IMG/VR virus record: IMGVR_UViG_3300043427_003765
Location: 1 to 30,970 of that record
Length of the DNA: 30,970 nt
DNA from: a virus
Direction: 5' to 3' (one strand)
Shown: piece by piece, positions 11,851 to 20,043 of the stretch
Numbering within the stretch: the first letter of the stretch is position 1
Layout: each line of letters opens with the position of its first letter
Translations under genes and position numbers: made by a program
Notes under the pieces: model-generated
What the model saw: only the letters and a program-made list of their open reading frames with translations
Databases searched by the model: none
What the model was told of the DNA's origin: nothing

Positions 11851-13377
11851 GTGCCTGCGTACCAACATCTTGCATACCGCCGTAACGCACAAGCGGCTGC
11901 TCGCAGGCAACAAATACGTGTCCCCCGAAATCTTGAATCCCTGGAGAAAGCACGGGAAGATTTCGGGTTTTTTTGTGAGTATGTAGCAGATAAACCTCCG
12001 GCTGACCACCACAAAGAATGGCATCGTCACTTTGTTACCAACGAAGACAGTAGCTGCCTGCGAAAAATTGCTGGACCCAATGTTGATCTCCTGGCGCCAC
12101 GGGGTTCTGCCAAATCAACAGTCTTGGGTCTGTTTACTGCCTGGGCCATCGGTGTTCATACAGCAGCCAAGTTACCGCTGCAGATTTTGTACTTGTCTTA
12201 CACAGTCGACATTGCACGTTCCAAGTCAGCAACCATTAAACGCATCATCGAAAGCAAGCGATATCAAGAAGTTTTCCCGACCGTACGTCTTCTAAAGAAC
12301 GTCACCAGCAATGAGTACTGGTCCATTGACCACAAGTTTGCAGGCATCGATACCACGGGTGAGGAACAATTCACACTCTGTGCCGCAGGCCTTAAAGGCT
12401 CAGTGACCTCCAAACGTTCACATCTAGTCATCATTGATGACGCCATCAAATCAGCCGCAGACATCTCCAACCCTGACATCCGGAAACAGATGCAGGACAA
12501 CTGGAATGCTGTGATTGCACCAACCATGTTTGAAGGCGGTCGAGCAATCTGCCTTGGCACACGTTTCAGACACGATGATATTCATGCCACAACATTCAAC
12601 CCGCAAAACAATTGGCTGCAAATTGTGCTTTCCGCCATCATCAATGATCCCAAAACGGGGGATGAAATGTCTTACTGGCCATCAATGTGGTCGTTGGATT
12701 ACTTGAAGGAAAAGAAACGACAAGCACCGATTGCTTTCTCGTTCCAGTACATGAATCAAGTCATCAGACAAAACGAGTTGTCGTTGGCGCCAGAGCTGAT
12801 TGTCAAGGCGGAGATTGCAACGGAGTTTGATACCCTTGGTATTGGGGTTGACCTTTCAGTTGGAACAAAAGAAAAGAATGATTACACCGTTATGGTTCTT
12901 GGTGGACGTATTGGTGATCAGATTCACATCATTGATTACAGGCGGCTACGCGTCATGGGTAACCTAGAAAAACTGGATGCCCTTAAGGAATTGCTCAACG
13001 ATTGGTCGATCCTTGGTAAAGATGAAGGCGGTCATTACTTTCCGACTTACTCCACGTGTGACATCTGGAGTGAAGCGGTTGCGTACCAGGCATCACTAGA
13101 AGCTGACTTCAAACGTGTATGCCTCACCAATGAAAGCTTGTATAACCTGAATTGGCATGCCGTCAAAGGATTCCGTGCCGATAAGTTGGCACGATTCCGT
13201 GGTTGCATGGGTATGTTCGAAGACCGCAAAATCATCTTCAATCGTTTCCGCAACTTTACGGCTATGTTTGAAGAGTTGACCAACTTTGGCGTCAGCAGTC
13301 ATGATGATTGCGTCGATGCCCTCGTATATTTGTTGACAGGATTAATGCGCAAAGGACAGCTGCAACTTGATTACTAA
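11851..13377 (+). CDS. terL: Terminase large subunit
   Basis: This is a 508-residue DNA-packaging motor with ATPase and nuclease halves; it drives DNA into the prohead through the portal and cuts the concatemer. The Walker A-type loop is LAPRGSAKST (about 81-90), Walker B is HLVIIDDA (191-198), and a GTRFR motif at 236-240 is the likely coupling motif. The RNase H-like nuclease is marked by GVDLSVGTKEKNDYT (332-346, first metal-binding Asp at about 334) and by HDDCVDAL close to the C-terminus. The GTG start at 11851 leaves room for the promoter and hairpin. Length and motif order are normal for the family. It is followed by small membrane and AbrB-like genes and then the portal. Confidence 0.93.
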   Translation: MPAYQHLAYRRNAQAAARRQQIRVPRNLESLEKAREDFGFFCEYVADKPPADHHKEWHRHFVTNEDSSCLRKIAGPNVDLLAPRGSAKSTVLGLFTAWAIGVHTAAKLPLQILYLSYTVDIARSKSATIKRIIESKRYQEVFPTVRLLKNVTSNEYWSIDHKFAGIDTTGEEQFTLCAAGLKGSVTSKRSHLVIIDDAIKSAADISNPDIRKQMQDNWNAVIAPTMFEGGRAICLGTRFRHDDIHATTFNPQNNWLQIVLSAIINDPKTGDEMSYWPSMWSLDYLKEKKRQAPIAFSFQYMNQVIRQNELSLAPELIVKAEIATEFDTLGIGVDLSVGTKEKNDYTVMVLGGRIGDQIHIIDYRRLRVMGNLEKLDALKELLNDWSILGKDEGGHYFPTYSTCDIWSEAVAYQASLEADFKRVCLTNESLYNLNWHAVKGFRADKLARFRGCMGMFEDRKIIFNRFRNFTAMFEELTNFGVSSHDDCVDALVYLLTGLMRKGQLQLDY

Positions 13378-13408: not shown

Positions 13409-13705
13409 GTGGGACCCGAATACTTAGCCATCGGCTTGACAGCCGTCATATCGGCTATCACAGGCGGTGGCTGGGCCGCATCTAAAATCTTGAATCGATA
13501 CAACGATCAAGTTCAACAGGCCTTCAATTACATTGGATCACAGAAACGGAGGATTGACGTGTTAGAGGAAGACCTCAAGCGCTTGCCTTTGGAATACGTC
13601 TTAAAAGTTGATTTCTTAAGAGAAATTCAAGATATGCGTGACAACTTTCGCGAAATTAATAATAAGCTTGATAAACTAATCGAGACAATGCTTTCCGCAA
13701 AATGA
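13409..13705 (+). CDS. Small membrane-anchored coiled-coil protein (holin- or spanin-like in layout)
   Basis: I choose a GTG at 13409 (98 residues, starting MGPEYLAIGLTAVISAITGG) because it sits 21 bases after a TAGAAT box. A TTG three codons upstream is the alternative. One hydrophobic segment at about 5-25 is followed by a charged helix with coiled-coil character (KRRIDVLEEDLKRL, then FLREIQDMRDNFREINNKLD). N-terminal anchor plus coiled coil is seen in holins, i-spanins and other phage envelope proteins. It lies between terminase and portal genes rather than next to the lysozyme, so a lysis role is uncertain. It overlaps the next gene by four bases (ATGA). Confidence 0.6.
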   Translation: MGPEYLAIGLTAVISAITGGGWAASKILNRYNDQVQQAFNYIGSQKRRIDVLEEDLKRLPLEYVLKVDFLREIQDMRDNFREINNKLDKLIETMLSAK

Positions 13706-13884
13706 GTTACATCCTCGAGGTCCAGGAGGACGAAAACGGTGATCAGTACATTACCCTGCCTGACGAGGTGATCGAAGAACTAGGTTGGCAAGAAGGCGAT
13801 GTGCTTAATTGGGATGTACGTAGTAACGGCATTGTCCTCAGTAAAGTAAATGACGCCGCTGGCTACGAGGTTATAGAAGAGTAA
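13702..13884 (+). CDS. AbrB/SpoVT-type small DNA-binding protein
   Basis: This 60-residue protein starts MSYILEVQEDENGDQYITLP. The pattern V-x-E-D-x-x-G-D-x-x-I-x-L-P-x-E-V followed by LGWQEGDVLNWDVRSNGIVL is that of the swapped-hairpin AbrB/MazE domain: two beta hairpins that dimerise and usually bind DNA. The domain fills the whole protein. In cells such domains are transition-state regulators or antitoxins; no partner toxin gene is seen next to it. In a late operon it may be a regulator or a chromatin-like DNA binder. It starts within the last codon of the preceding gene, and its stop TAA is part of a TAAAAT box. Confidence 0.7.
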   Translation: MSYILEVQEDENGDQYITLPDEVIEELGWQEGDVLNWDVRSNGIVLSKVNDAAGYEVIEE

Positions 13885-14558: not shown

Positions 14559-16886
14559 ATGGCAGACGCTAAGGCCCGGCTTCAGGAAATTATCAATGCC
14601 TATCTTGAAAAAGATAGCGACATTGTTGTTGATACCGGCATTGTCGCGTCTCATATTGCACAGATGAAACTCTTTGGCATTCGCCAGGGAGTTGAATTTT
14701 TCCCATCTCAAGATAACTTTGGCAACCAGCGCAAAGATTTTATCGACCGCGTGCTGAAGTACAACAAGATGGATACACGCCTAGATTCCATCTGGGAGTA
14801 TTTCCTCTGTGACGGCAAGGGTCTTTTTTACATTCGTCCTACCAAGTTCAGCTATCGTCTTTATTATTTCCGCGAACACGAATATCGCGCTTTCTATAAC
14901 GTAGATGGCGAGTTAGATGAAGTTGTAATTATCTACAGCTATAAGGTCAAAAAGGGATTTGGCCTTAATGAAAATATTAATATCAGCACTCTTACCGGTG
15001 CCACCAATACTGGTAATCAAGGGGCCAAGCGATACATCAGGCTTTCTATTAAAAACGACTCAATCGAAGAAACACATTCAGAAGGCGAAATGTCTTTTGA
15101 CATGCCTAGCTATGCAACCCCTGGTAAAACTAAAACATTTACCAACAGCTTAGGCTTTATTCCTTGCGTTGAGATTCTCAATAATCCGAAGGGATTTTCC
15201 AACGAAGGCGTCGGAGAGTTTGACGCCATGGCAAACCACATTTGCACTCATGACGATTTAATGCGCACAATGCGCAAAAACATTACTTTCTTTGGTAATC
15301 CGACACTTCTTTCTTCCAGGCCTAAGACCGACCTTATGGAAGCAGGTGGAGAAGCCACAATTCAACGTCCCTCCATTGCTGCAAACTCGGGATTCACAAG
15401 CCCTGCTCCATTGAGTCGCTCAATGTTTAAGGCTGATCCAGTCAGTCGTGGCGTTGACGGTCAGCTTCGTGTCCCTCGCATCATCGCAAACCTGGAGCCA
15501 AACGACCGTGTTGGTTACATTGTTCCAGATGCCATCACTGGAGACCAAAACGCATTTGCTCGTCAATATCGAGAAGAGATTCGCACAGCACTGGGCGGTG
15601 TAGATGAGCTTTCCATTTCAGCAGGCGTTACCGCAACCGAATACAAATCTTTGTTTGGTCGGGTGTCTGCAACTTCAAAGAAAAAAGCTAATGCTATTTA
15701 CACACATGGTATCGCGCGGTGTCTTGAGCTAATTGTTTATCAAGAAGAGCAGCTATTTAAATCAACACTTGCTCAGGCGGCAAAGATTGAAAAGCCAATC
15801 AGGCCATCTTCTGATGCGCCAGAGGAAGAAGTTTCTGCCTACGAAGAGGCAATGAAACAATTTAATGCTCAAGTTAAAAATCTAATGGTTGCTTGTGTTG
15901 AAGCACAGCAGATTCCACCCGGAGTTATGGGCCTTATTCCGGATGGTGATGTCACGGTTCTTTGGCGATGGCTGGGACCTGTTTACGAAGACTCAACGCA
16001 AGACACGCTGAACAACTCCATTGTGGTGCGCAACTTACAAGAGTTAGGTGTTGATAGCATTGAAGCATTGAAATACCTCTTTCCGTCTAAGACGGATGAG
16101 GAACGGGCCGAGATGTTATCTGGGTTCCCTTTCAGGATGGTGAATGAATTGCAGGGTGCATACTCTCAATTCGCTAAACTAGTGGGGGGCATGATGCAGA
16201 CTCCCCACCCGCAAGCACCGGATCTTCCGATGGCTGCGGATCCAAGATTGGATTTAACGCCATATCTGTATCGAACATTAGAAGCTCTACAAAAGGAGAT
16301 GAGTTATGCAGGACGCTACCGTCCAATCGATCCCACAGACGAGCCAGGCACCAGTGGCGGTGGCTCCAAGCAGCTACGTGGTACCGGCCCAAGCTCCGGC
16401 ACCTCAAGCTCCAGTGGCGGCTCCGATTCAGTATCAAGTGGGTACCAGCTACCCCCAAGCGGTCCCTCAGCCGAATATCAGCTACCAATCCGCCCCGTCT
16501 CAGTACGCCCCCCAATTCCAGCCGGATTCGGGCAGCAACAGCAATCCGTGGGAATCGGCGTTCAACAAGGTGGTGAACCTGCTGAGCGCACCAGTTCAAT
16601 CCCCGTTCCAGGCGCAACCATCACAAGCGACGACTCCGTATACCCCGGCGAATTACGGACAGTACAGCAACCAGGCTATGCCCAACTCGGCAGCGCCGAC
16701 CTTATCAACCAGCCGGGCCTCATTGCCCAGCTCTTCCCAAATCTCCTCGGCTCTTTACTCAACGCTGGACGGACTGGATCCGACACCGGACGTACAGAAC
16801 GCAATCGCGGACTACCTGGGTCTGAACCAGGAAAGCCGGATGGTGATCGACGCGTACGGGGTAAACGCACCGGCAGTTCTAAATAA
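14559..16886 (+). CDS. Portal protein (N4-type size), C-terminus overlapping the next gene
   Basis: This 775-residue product starts MADAKARLQEIINAYLEKDS. The dodecameric portal would sit at one capsid vertex, dock the terminase and let DNA in and out. Support is its place (after terminase, before scaffold-like and capsid genes), its length near that of N4-type portals, and portal-like content: a mixed alpha/beta N-terminal part (YFLCDGKGLFYIRPTKFSY), a central helical stem region, and a 440-560 region with TVLWRWLGPVYEDS. From about residue 583 on, the frame is Ser/Gly/Pro-rich and overlaps 16306-17310 in another frame for 581 bases. The last 190 residues are therefore either a genuine disordered tail or a chance open frame. 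Confidence 0.75.
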   Translation: MADAKARLQEIINAYLEKDSDIVVDTGIVASHIAQMKLFGIRQGVEFFPSQDNFGNQRKDFIDRVLKYNKMDTRLDSIWEYFLCDGKGLFYIRPTKFSYRLYYFREHEYRAFYNVDGELDEVVIIYSYKVKKGFGLNENINISTLTGATNTGNQGAKRYIRLSIKNDSIEETHSEGEMSFDMPSYATPGKTKTFTNSLGFIPCVEILNNPKGFSNEGVGEFDAMANHICTHDDLMRTMRKNITFFGNPTLLSSRPKTDLMEAGGEATIQRPSIAANSGFTSPAPLSRSMFKADPVSRGVDGQLRVPRIIANLEPNDRVGYIVPDAITGDQNAFARQYREEIRTALGGVDELSISAGVTATEYKSLFGRVSATSKKKANAIYTHGIARCLELIVYQEEQLFKSTLAQAAKIEKPIRPSSDAPEEEVSAYEEAMKQFNAQVKNLMVACVEAQQIPPGVMGLIPDGDVTVLWRWLGPVYEDSTQDTLNNSIVVRNLQELGVDSIEALKYLFPSKTDEERAEMLSGFPFRMVNELQGAYSQFAKLVGGMMQTPHPQAPDLPMAADPRLDLTPYLYRTLEALQKEMSYAGRYRPIDPTDEPGTSGGGSKQLRGTGPSSGTSSSSGGSDSVSSGYQLPPSGPSAEYQLPIRPVSVRPPIPAGFGQQQQSVGIGVQQGGEPAERTSSIPVPGATITSDDSVYPGELRTVQQPGYAQLGSADLINQPGLIAQLFPNLLGSLLNAGRTGSDTGRTERNRGLPGSEPGKPDGDRRVRGKRTGSSK

Positions 16887-17310
16887 TTATGCCCTTCAGC
16901 TTGAAGGAATGCTGGACAGCGCCGTTGCCTGGGGCAATCAAGCCAAGGATCTGATTCAGGGCTACGCCAATTTTGCTGTTAACGAGCACACCGAAAATCT
17001 GGCGTACAACGAAATTCTCACCAACCCAGATGTGCTCAGCGATTACACGCTGAAGTTCTTTGGTCCCGAAGGTCCTTATCCCGTGTACGAAAACGAAGCG
17101 CAACTGGAGACCCGTGGTTACCCCACTGCTCCTATTAACGCAGCAATGGGTCAATTCCCTGCTCCTCCCGCTGCAGCCGCTCCTCAGCAACCTGAAAACT
17201 TCTGGGGTTCTTTCAAGCAACAGATGGATCACGATCCAAGCCAAGCCTGGCGCATCCTGAACCAAGCTCAGCCTCAAGTTGTTGCAAACAAACTGTTTGT
17301 GATGGAGTGA
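16306..17310 (+). CDS. Candidate scaffolding protein, overlapping the portal gene
   Basis: This 334-residue protein starts MQDATVQSIPQTSQAPVAVA. The start is well supported by AAGGAG seven bases before the ATG. The first 150 residues are Pro/Gln/Ala/Ser-rich and disordered apart from NPWESAFNKVVNLLSAPV. Residues 150-250 are helical (LNQESRMVIDAYGVNAPAVL and DSAVAWGNQAKDLIQGYANF), and the C-terminus ends in a Gln-rich helix (SQAWRILNQAQPQVVANKLF). Placement between portal and capsid, low complexity and helical content fit a capsid scaffold, as in N4-type phages where one or two genes lie between portal and capsid. The first 581 bases are shared with the portal frame and are clearly richer in GC than the genes around them. 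Confidence 0.7.
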   Translation: MQDATVQSIPQTSQAPVAVAPSSYVVPAQAPAPQAPVAAPIQYQVGTSYPQAVPQPNISYQSAPSQYAPQFQPDSGSNSNPWESAFNKVVNLLSAPVQSPFQAQPSQATTPYTPANYGQYSNQAMPNSAAPTLSTSRASLPSSSQISSALYSTLDGLDPTPDVQNAIADYLGLNQESRMVIDAYGVNAPAVLNNYALQLEGMLDSAVAWGNQAKDLIQGYANFAVNEHTENLAYNEILTNPDVLSDYTLKFFGPEGPYPVYENEAQLETRGYPTAPINAAMGQFPAPPAAAAPQQPENFWGSFKQQMDHDPSQAWRILNQAQPQVVANKLFVME

Positions 17311-17314
17311 TGCC

Positions 17315-17935
17315 ATGCGTGGCATTCTTAAATACGGTGTACCTGCTGCCGCCGCCTTAGGTGTTGGCGGGTATGCCCTTTCTCAAGGTGAAGATCCAGG
17401 CTCTGCTGCACTTGCCGCAGGTGCCGGTGCTCTTGGCGGTGCAGCAGGTTTATTAGGTGGTCGTGCGCTTGCCGGTAAATTTGCAGGTCCTCTTGCAAAT
17501 GCCTTGAATACAGGGAAGAAAGCAGCGATCCAAGGGCTGACATCTGCCTCTCAAAATATCTACGCTCCTATCAAGACTTCTGTACGAGAAGTTAGCGCCG
17601 CTGAAGCCGCCCAGGCGGAAGCAATTAACAAATTGCGTGCCCAACGTGCAGGTGAAAGCAAGAGAGCCGCAGCACTTGGCGGAATTGCTGGAGCACTTCA
17701 AGGACTCCCTCAAGCCACCGAAGCAGGTATTTATTCAGGTCTTAAAACAGGCTTAGGTGCAGTTGCAGTTCCTGCCGCCGCACTTACCGCTGGTCTCGGC
17801 GGTGTAGCACTTGGCGCTATTCCGGGTGCCATGGGTCTACCTGGTTTCCAGCAAGGTGGAGGTCTTGATCCCGAATCTCCTTACGTTTCCCAGAATCCCC
17901 GTGGACTTGGGATGACAACTATGCAGTACGTGTAA
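17315..17935 (+). CDS. Gly/Ala-rich membrane-active virion protein
   Basis: This 206-residue protein starts MRGILKYGVPAAAALGVGGY. Two long Gly/Ala hydrophobic blocks, at about 8-58 (with SAALAAGAGALGGAAGLLGG) and 118-180 (with TAGLGGVALGAIPGAMGLPG), flank a charged helix (SAAEAAQAEAINKLRAQRAG). This is the same build as the proteins of 5445, 6020 and 6975, although it lies 9 kb away between scaffold-like and capsid genes, so it may be a further ejection protein or a capsid-inner component. It starts four bases after the preceding stop. No homologue is recognised. Confidence 0.7.
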   Translation: MRGILKYGVPAAAALGVGGYALSQGEDPGSAALAAGAGALGGAAGLLGGRALAGKFAGPLANALNTGKKAAIQGLTSASQNIYAPIKTSVREVSAAEAAQAEAINKLRAQRAGESKRAAALGGIAGALQGLPQATEAGIYSGLKTGLGAVAVPAAALTAGLGGVALGAIPGAMGLPGFQQGGGLDPESPYVSQNPRGLGMTTMQYV

Positions 17936-18039: not shown

Positions 18040-19203
18040 GTGTTCATTGATAACGACTTTCCAAAGATTCTGGGTGCGGAACTTTACCGTCCTCACCCTG
18101 CTTACATTGCCGAAATGGCAGTGGAGCCCGTGGTGGTCCATGACTTCACCCGTCAGCCCGGTCAAACCGTTCAGTTAGACCGCTATAAGTTCTGGGGTAC
18201 CCCTGGTACGAAGGACAGCCGTGAGCGTATTGCCGACCAAACTATCGGTACCGCTAACAGCCGTAACATCACCAAGGAGAAAGTCCTGGTGGTGCTTAAG
18301 GAATACACTGGTCCTGCCGACCCGGGCGATCCGACCCAACCCAGCACCTTCAAAATTGCTCGGGAAACCCTGATTACCGCCCAGCGTCTTCTGCTGGACA
18401 CCGGTAACCTCAACATGTTCCACCAGTCGATCGGCAGCCTGACTCTGCTTGACGACTATCGCCGTTGGCGTGACCGCGTCTTCATTGACGAACTTGCCAA
18501 AGCAGAAGCTAACGGTGTTGCTTCTACTACCCAAGGTGGTTACTACTTCGCTGGTGGTAAGACCAAAGATTCTCAGGGTCGTGTGTCCTACACCTCCACT
18601 GAGTATGGCAATGAGGTGCAGCAGTTCCAGGTGCGTACCGACCTTCTGACCGTTGTTAAGGACCTGCGTAAGCGCAATACTCCTACCTTCGCTGATGGTT
18701 TGTATCGCTGCATCTGTGATCCTACCTTCATGATGCACCTGCGTCGTGATCCTGACTTCCGTGAGATCGCACGTTATAGCGGCAATCCTGGCCAAGGCAT
18801 GTACATGGGCAACCCCATGATGCCTAACAACGCCAGCTTCTACATGGGTCCACAAGCTGGTCAGGGCTACTTCCTGGCTGGTGAGCCTGTGATGCCGACT
18901 GGTGTGCAGTTTGAAGGCGTCAAGTTCTTCGAGTCGACCAACTTCCCGACCAAGAGCGTGTCCGCTTCCTTCGACAACGGCTCTAGCTATGCCTCCAAGG
19001 AAGTTGCTCAAGGTTACTTCTTCGGTCCTCAGTCTGTTGGTGTTGGTATCGGCGGTCCTAACGCTCAGGTGCTCATCAACAACAACGATGACTTCAGCCG
19101 TTTCATCATCCTGATCTGGCAACTGTACGCTGGCTTCGAGATCCTGAACAAGGACTTCGTGACCACTGCTTACAGCTTCGTCCAGGACGACGGCACTGTT
19201 TGA
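18040..19203 (+). CDS. Major capsid protein, N4 gp56-like
   Basis: This 387-residue protein starts (GTG) MFIDNDFPKILGAELYRPHP. The pattern DFTRQPGQTVQLDRYKFWG near residues 32-50, then RETLITAQRLLLDT, CDPTFMMHLRRDPDFREIARY and GVQFEGVKFFES, is the succession seen in the N4 gp56-type capsid family with HK97 fold. Codons are strongly biased to GC-ending and common forms, unlike most neighbours, as expected for the most abundant protein. GGAGGA is well placed before the GTG. The leader has a TAAAAT box, a hairpin and an inverted repeat (18007-18013 with 18038-18044) that could mask the start. The long antisense frame over this gene is a shadow of its codon bias. Confidence 0.88.
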   Translation: MFIDNDFPKILGAELYRPHPAYIAEMAVEPVVVHDFTRQPGQTVQLDRYKFWGTPGTKDSRERIADQTIGTANSRNITKEKVLVVLKEYTGPADPGDPTQPSTFKIARETLITAQRLLLDTGNLNMFHQSIGSLTLLDDYRRWRDRVFIDELAKAEANGVASTTQGGYYFAGGKTKDSQGRVSYTSTEYGNEVQQFQVRTDLLTVVKDLRKRNTPTFADGLYRCICDPTFMMHLRRDPDFREIARYSGNPGQGMYMGNPMMPNNASFYMGPQAGQGYFLAGEPVMPTGVQFEGVKFFESTNFPTKSVSASFDNGSSYASKEVAQGYFFGPQSVGVGIGGPNAQVLINNNDDFSRFIILIWQLYAGFEILNKDFVTTAYSFVQDDGTV

Positions 19204-19239: not shown

Positions 19240-20043
19240 ATGACCTATTTGTCCGCTAAGAAAATCTACCCAGGCAACTGGGCAGAACCCCTGAACGGTT
19301 GGTACAAGAACATTGATACCAACGATGATGGCTCTAATAACGCCTCCAAGGGCGGCCCCACTTCGGTGCTGGCTATCCCTGGTTATCGTTACTTCCAGCA
19401 GCGTGGTTACGTCCCTGTGACTGCCACCTCTGGCGCTGGCGCTGTTGCCGCTGCCGATGTGATCGTCCCCTCGCCTTACCGCCAGGACGACACCCGTCCC
19501 GACATCACCGGCATGGTGATCTCTGGTAGCAGCACCCTGCCTGCTTATGTGTATCGCGCTACCATCTCCGTTGCCTCTGGCTGGGGTGACGGCCGCGTTG
19601 CCTCCGGTGTGTATGCCGCAACCGGTAACGTCATCTCCTTTGGCCGCAGCAATGCCGGTAGCCCTACCGCTGCCTCCGGTATTGGCGAAGCTGTTATCCA
19701 GGCAAACCTGACCTCCACCGTGTCTGGTTCTCAGGTTGGCGAAATCTTCTTCGCCGCTGGTTCCGCTGCTTACAGCGCTAACCCCTTCCTGATCGCCTCT
19801 GGCGCCGCTGGTGTGACCGCCGGTAACGTGTACTACTCCGCTACCGCTTCCACCACTCTGAAAGTGTTTGCGAAAGAAACTGCAAACAGCACTGCAACCT
19901 CTGGTGGCTTCTATATCTCCAGTGGTGATTCCAGCGGTGGCCGCACTGGTTACCTCGTCGTCGAAGCCTGCTACATCCAACCCGATGAAGCCCCTGGCTA
20001 CGAAGACATTGATGGTTACCTCCTGGGCCGCACCGTTAGCTGA
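19240..20043 (+). CDS. Abundant virion protein, possibly capsid decoration or second head protein
   Basis: This 267-residue protein starts MTYLSAKKIYPGNWAEPLNG. It is rich in Ala, Ser, Thr and Gly with many short beta strands (LPAYVYRATISVASGWGDGR, EAVIQANLTSTVSGSQVGEI), like a beta-sandwich decoration or cement protein. Codon choice matches the capsid gene before it (GC-ending, biased), which suggests high expression. AGGA precedes the ATG by eight bases. It follows the capsid gene by 36 bases, so both are probably on one message. It could also be a head-tail joining protein; the sequence alone does not settle this. Confidence 0.7.
   Translation: MTYLSAKKIYPGNWAEPLNGWYKNIDTNDDGSNNASKGGPTSVLAIPGYRYFQQRGYVPVTATSGAGAVAAADVIVPSPYRQDDTRPDITGMVISGSSTLPAYVYRATISVASGWGDGRVASGVYAATGNVISFGRSNAGSPTAASGIGEAVIQANLTSTVSGSQVGEIFFAAGSAAYSANPFLIASGAAGVTAGNVYYSATASTTLKVFAKETANSTATSGGFYISSGDSSGGRTGYLVVEACYIQPDEAPGYEDIDGYLLGRTVS

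Follow-up and report, generated by a model that had tools for sequence, protein, structure and literature searches.

Evidence for a long double-coded overlap between the portal gene and a putative scaffold gene in S-EIV1-like cyanophages

When the portal frame of a phage continues for some 190 codons into the gene that follows it, does the shared DNA really encode two proteins, or is one of the frames open by accident? This question is raised by a virus record of 30,970 bases, called the window here and analysed at its full length, in which the head-gene region was read from open reading frames and profile searches (Table 1). The genes are arranged in the order terminase large subunit, three small genes, portal, ORF2, a gene for a 206-aa protein and the major capsid gene; between terminase and portal, positions 13702-13884 encode a 60-aa MazE/AbrB-like protein (PF04014, 2.6e-9). 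Both the portal frame and ORF2 are present where an original prediction, made from the letters alone, had placed them, and they share positions 16306-16886, a same-strand overlap of 581 nt in which the ORF2 frame lies one base ahead of that of the portal. Double coding beyond a few bases is rare in tailed phages. Across annotated virus genomes the median +1 overlap measures 14 nt (interquartile range 8-26; PMC8903798), and a long same-strand overlap of two structural genes is as unusual as had been supposed. A literature search, outside whose coverage many journals lie, brought up no earlier description of portal and scaffold-position genes that overlap out of frame over a long distance. Our analysis indicates that the S-EIV1 lineage of cyanophages very probably has a genuine pair of overlapping genes here, with a double-coded portal tail. 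If so, about 580 bases encode both the C-terminal end of the portal and the beginning of the head gene that follows, a double coding that existing annotation has missed.

Table 1. Features of the head-gene region of the window.
Feature	Position	Strand	Basis or remark
Terminase large subunit	11851..13377	+	phrog_38 2.2e-75; Terminase_6C 1.5e-8; 508 aa
Portal frame, whole	14559-16886	+	ORF, 775 aa
Portal core, codons 1-583, predicted canonical T7-type portal	14559..16307	+	profile and Foldseek matches
Leader with suppressed synonymous variation, about 260 nt	16044..16305	+	third-position divergence
Nearly invariant 24-nt block TTAGGTGTTGATAGCATTGAAGCA, inside portal gene	16044..16067	+	sharp upstream edge of constrained stretch
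Shine-Dalgarno AAGGAG of ORF2	16293..16298	+	7 nt before ATG
ORF2, putative scaffold	16306..17310	+	334 aa, ATG start, +1 frame relative to portal
Selected part of overprinted portal tail, residues about 584-735	16308..16762	+	omega_P; pairwise identity 73%
Last 40 portal codons and stop	16763..16886	+	no portal-frame selection; 44% identity
Gly/Ala-rich hydrophobic 206-aa protein, between ORF2 and capsid gene	17315..17935	+	ORF
Major capsid protein	18040..19203	+	phrog_1357 1.3e-16

Several hundred related loci were obtained from IMG/VR, and 425 in the pooled set cover the end of the portal core. Those complete in both frames (379 loci, representing 224 distinct sequences and including the isolate Synechococcus phage S-EIV1) all keep the overlap, at lengths of 497-662 nt, as does the deepest member examined (L381; portal 71% and ORF2 58% identity). 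ORF2 starts with ATG in 425 of 425 loci, and the strong ribosome site noted earlier ahead of it is near-invariant among the relatives, with CAAAAGGAGATGAGTT in 217 of the 224 distinct sequences and near variants in the others. Because an in-frame TGA closes the frame 6 nt before this ATG (153 of 153 loci checked), ORF2 begins exactly there and cannot come from upstream. Homologous portals ending near residue 590, which the original prediction had named as evidence against a long portal, were looked for and none was found; in every homologue complete in both frames the portal frame runs well past codon 583, by 172-209 residues in one set of loci. An assembly error, such as the indel near 16300 that had also been a concern, can be rejected, since the same arrangement recurs in hundreds of loci from many metagenomes, including all 379 complete ones, and in the isolate S-EIV1. 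The sole exceptions are L247, which is visibly frameshifted, and one contig (L176/L289). On this contig a portal-frame stop lies 185 nt into the overlap, near the contig end, and may reflect either an error in sequencing or loss of the tail in that lineage.

S-EIV1 (KJ410740) is the only annotated relative, with a portal 72.7% and an ORF2 66.6% identical to those of the window and with the same portal-ORF2 overlap. S-EIV1-like genomes and six marine environmental genomes constitute a genus-level group (PMC5332604). The GenBank record of S-EIV1 differs from the window in that ORF2, whose match starts at 59287, is listed in truncated form at 59863-60264, and the portal-length protein is annotated there as hypothetical. 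Since the record covers no more than the final 133 residues of ORF2, the overlap was missed. Gene callers usually reject long overlaps, and overlapping genes therefore get lost from annotation, the truncated ORF2 of S-EIV1 being an example. Elsewhere in the same genome, the major capsid gene (S-EIV1 60784-62010; L359 10885-12111) is wrongly annotated as a pair of hypothetical proteins, one of which lies on the minus strand; a tblastn search with the major capsid protein matches S-EIV1 at 60859-62007 on the plus strand (87.6%). The S-EIV1 terminase large subunit (54080-56620; L359 4181-6721) contains an inserted segment bearing an intein splicing domain (PF14890, 1.4e-11) that is missing from the 508-aa terminase of the window.

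How far could the openness of the two frames be due to chance? When the synonymous codons of ORF2 were shuffled, the portal frame stayed open in 1.5% of trials, and ORF2 stayed open in 0.4% when those of the portal were shuffled. The excess over chance is modest for one sequence, but it holds in 224 distinct sequences. The overlap is also GC-rich relative to its flanks, as had been noticed (0.58-0.60 in 300-nt windows versus 0.45-0.48 upstream and about 0.53 downstream), but this alone is weak evidence because other genes of the window (19300-19800) likewise reach 0.60.

A codon-level selection analysis had been proposed as a check of the original prediction, and it revealed purifying selection in both frames. 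We applied an OLGenie-like count, implemented in our own script (kappa 2, Jukes-Cantor correction), to 69 independent nearest-neighbour pairs, sorting every possible change by whether it is silent in each of the two frames. Over the whole overlap, divergence (d) was 0.56 for changes silent in both frames, 0.196 for those altering only the portal, 0.093 for those altering only ORF2 and 0.067 for those altering both; over 16320-16760 the corresponding values were 0.63, 0.165, 0.101 and 0.052. Within the latter interval omega was, by background class, 0.26 (0.21-0.32) and 0.52 (0.45-0.60) for the portal and 0.16 (0.12-0.20) and 0.32 (0.28-0.36) for ORF2. The controls gave no such signal: in ORF2 beyond the portal stop the unread portal frame had omega values of 1.0 and about 1.7-2.0, and in the portal core the unread ORF2 frame had values of 0.93 and 0.73. 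Moreover, divergence at sites that are silent in the portal and change ORF2 is 7-fold lower in the overlap than in the core (d 0.093 versus 0.683), and the nonsynonymous rate of ORF2 is below that of the portal in 50 of the 69 pairs. Because omega is low in both frames and the controls lack this signal, we conclude that both proteins are under purifying selection in the overlap; these selection tests also reject the portal tail as a chance open frame. Taken from sequence comparison, the evidence points to a conserved and selected overlapping gene pair with its own internal start.

The entire 581 nt had been put forward as double-coding, and this is true of only part of the stretch. Portal-frame selection ends near residue 735, and the functional double-coding part is about 450 nt long. 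Over the last 40 portal codons, which occupy the remaining 120 nt or so, omega_P is 0.83 and 1.79 compared with 1.00 and 1.75 in the control, pairwise identity of the portal is 44% as against 73% in the selected tail, and the position of the stop varies. These codons are probably a neutral run-out to the next stop.

The core of the portal protein matches phrog_20475 (1.7e-281) and, over residues 57-247, the portal family phrog_64 (9.5e-5), which is matched by 15 of 32 members. Confidence is low for both structure models (pLDDT 49 and 38). A Foldseek search with the low-confidence portal model nevertheless returned portals as nearly all of its top matches (best E 9.2e-6), including T7 gp8 and that of cyanophage P-SCSP1u, and with VIA-align residues 107-521 of a T7 gp8 chain align to residues 51-551 of the same low-confidence model (Z 4.5-6). 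Because T7 gp8 up to residue 521 aligns as far as model residue 551, the 583-residue core would correspond to a whole T7-type portal and the tail would be an addition. The core thus shares its predicted fold with T7-type portals (T7 gp8 and the P-SCSP1u portal), whereas the alignment ends near residue 551 at most and the tail of about 190 residues in the window is additional. This tail is Gly/Ser/Pro-rich, is predicted with low confidence to be unstructured except for a helix at 719-736, and contains the conserved motifs QLPI, RPP.P, G.GVQQ and AQLFPN. The earlier suggestion that the portal gained a disordered tail by overprinting is therefore borne out as regards a selected tail that is predicted to be disordered but for one helix, but the direction of overprinting remains a matter of inference. 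For a globally distributed cyanophage group, the portal would acquire a previously unrecognised conserved tail whose role in head assembly can be tested.

ORF2 is predicted, again by a low-confidence model, to be disordered in its N-terminal, overlapping half and helical in its C-terminal half (helices 188-239 and 299-333). Its N-terminus is near-invariant, with the conserved start MQDATVQSIPQ, its C-terminal end is conserved, and its composition is Pro/Gln/Ala-rich and charge-poor. The gene sits between those of the portal and the major capsid protein, together with the gene of the 206-aa protein, for which family searches gave no match. Searches of PHROGs, Pfam, PDB sequences and folds returned no family, sequence or fold match for ORF2, and no similarity to a known scaffold; scaffolds diverge strongly. 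ORF2 resembles T7 gp9 and its analogues, whose genes likewise lie between portal and capsid, in gene position and in its disordered-plus-helical build, but differs from them in lacking detectable sequence or fold similarity and in overlapping the portal gene. Judged from position and architecture alone, ORF2 is most likely a scaffold.

A further signal precedes the overlap. At about 16038-16040, roughly 260 nt ahead of it, third-position divergence in the portal gene falls 3- to 4-fold, from about 0.4 to about 0.1, and in 131 sequences the codons of the 24-nt block at this edge show little or no variation. A third, hidden ORF in 16044-16305 was considered and rejected, as stops interrupt the other frames in most or all sequences. 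The block was also rejected as a repeated phage promoter, given that each genome has a single copy. A scan for sigma-70 promoters upstream of ORF2 found none, an Rfam search of the upstream stretch yielded nothing above threshold, and RNAalifold gave compensatory changes in 4 of 73 pairs there, with no convincing element. The simplest reading of the sequence pattern is that 16044-16305 is probably a cis-acting element inside the portal gene that serves the expression of ORF2.

Could the shared stretch be explained if only ORF2 were functional in it, with the portal ending near residue 583 or its tail being a meaningless read-through kept open by the composition of ORF2? The low complexity of the tail, the lack of selection on its last 40 codons and the 1.5% probability that a single sequence stays open on codon shuffling would be compatible with such an explanation. 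It is nevertheless very improbable in view of omega_P, which is 0.26 and 0.52 over 16320-16760 versus 1.0 and 1.74 downstream, of the conservation of all four tail motifs and of the absence of any stop ahead of the tail. Alternatively, the overlap might evolve slowly owing to constraint on the nucleotides themselves, such as an RNA structure or a packaging signal, and constraint of this kind seems to act just upstream, at 16044-16305. Within the overlap, however, doubly silent sites show the full neutral divergence (d = 0.63), so general nucleotide constraint is excluded as the cause there, and the probability that we leave to this explanation is practically negligible. Programmed frameshifting, by which a portal-ORF2 fusion would be made, also usually occurs where two frames overlap on one strand, but selection on both frames over 450 nt is more than a frameshift site would need, and ORF2 has a near-invariant Shine-Dalgarno and ATG of its own; we find this reading hardly credible.

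If both frames are used, which of them came first? Among same-strand overlaps, 3′ extension is the commoner route (PMC3887535). This prevalence, together with the near-invariant N-terminus of ORF2, the neutral and variable portal end and the completeness of the core, favours growth of the portal into an older ORF2, and the tail probably arose by loss of a stop codon. The reverse order, in which a new start codon appeared inside an older portal tail and the C-terminal half of ORF2 was acquired later, is unlikely on the same grounds and because the nonsynonymous rate of ORF2 is the lower one (50 of 69 pairs), although codon usage favours neither frame as older and the constrained leader and Shine-Dalgarno lie within portal coding sequence, as this order would have it. 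What ORF2 does is a separate matter that leaves double coding unaffected. Some other internal head or ejection protein is quite possible, at a little under an even chance, and would suit both the lack of homology to scaffolds and the charge-poor composition, which is atypical of scaffolds. The predicted long helix and C-terminal helices speak for a scaffold instead, as does the placement of the gene between portal and capsid, like that of the uncharacterised 381-aa and 245-aa genes of Mae-Yong1326-1 and HTVC023P.

With an overlapping pair and an older ORF2 as the preferred reading, ribosomes on the portal gene would proceed about 190 codons beyond a complete T7-type portal and produce a mostly disordered C-terminal tail, and a second set would start at the internal Shine-Dalgarno and the ATG at 16306 to read ORF2 in the +1 frame. 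Selection would retain both proteins across about 450 nt, and the final 120 nt of the portal frame would just run to the next stop. The portal would have been lengthened over ORF2 by stop codon loss, and its tail may project from the portal barrel into the head, where the short motifs and the one helix could be binding sites for scaffold or internal head proteins. Expression of ORF2, and perhaps of the capsid genes, may be aided by the constrained 260 nt before the ATG. It is conceivable, if rather doubtful, that extension of the portal over a scaffold gene joined two head-assembly steps in the sequence itself: the disordered portal tail and the disordered half of the scaffold, being co-encoded and co-evolving, might bind each other or the same partner, and a cis element in the portal gene would set scaffold expression.

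The pair resembles overprinted viral gene pairs, such as those of phiX174, in that one stretch gives two selected proteins with biased composition and disorder, but here both members are head genes and the virus is a tailed dsDNA phage. A well-sampled clade, a clean overlap and internal controls make it well suited to studying the origin and persistence of overprinting in large DNA viruses. Scans for sister lineages without the overlap returned members of the clade and no such lineage, and a pattern designed to exclude the start site of the clade had no match. In HTVC023P and Mae-Yong1326-1, whose terminases are 25% identical, the order is portal-X-capsid with little or no overlap; these phages were rejected as polarising outgroups because their portals and X proteins have no detectable homology to those of the clade. 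One contig of this phage lineage (L159, RFNU01000069.1) is binned in a bacterial MAG (isolate LLD_282); among 398 genomes of its phylum this MAG alone matched, and the binning probably reflects contamination or an infected cell.
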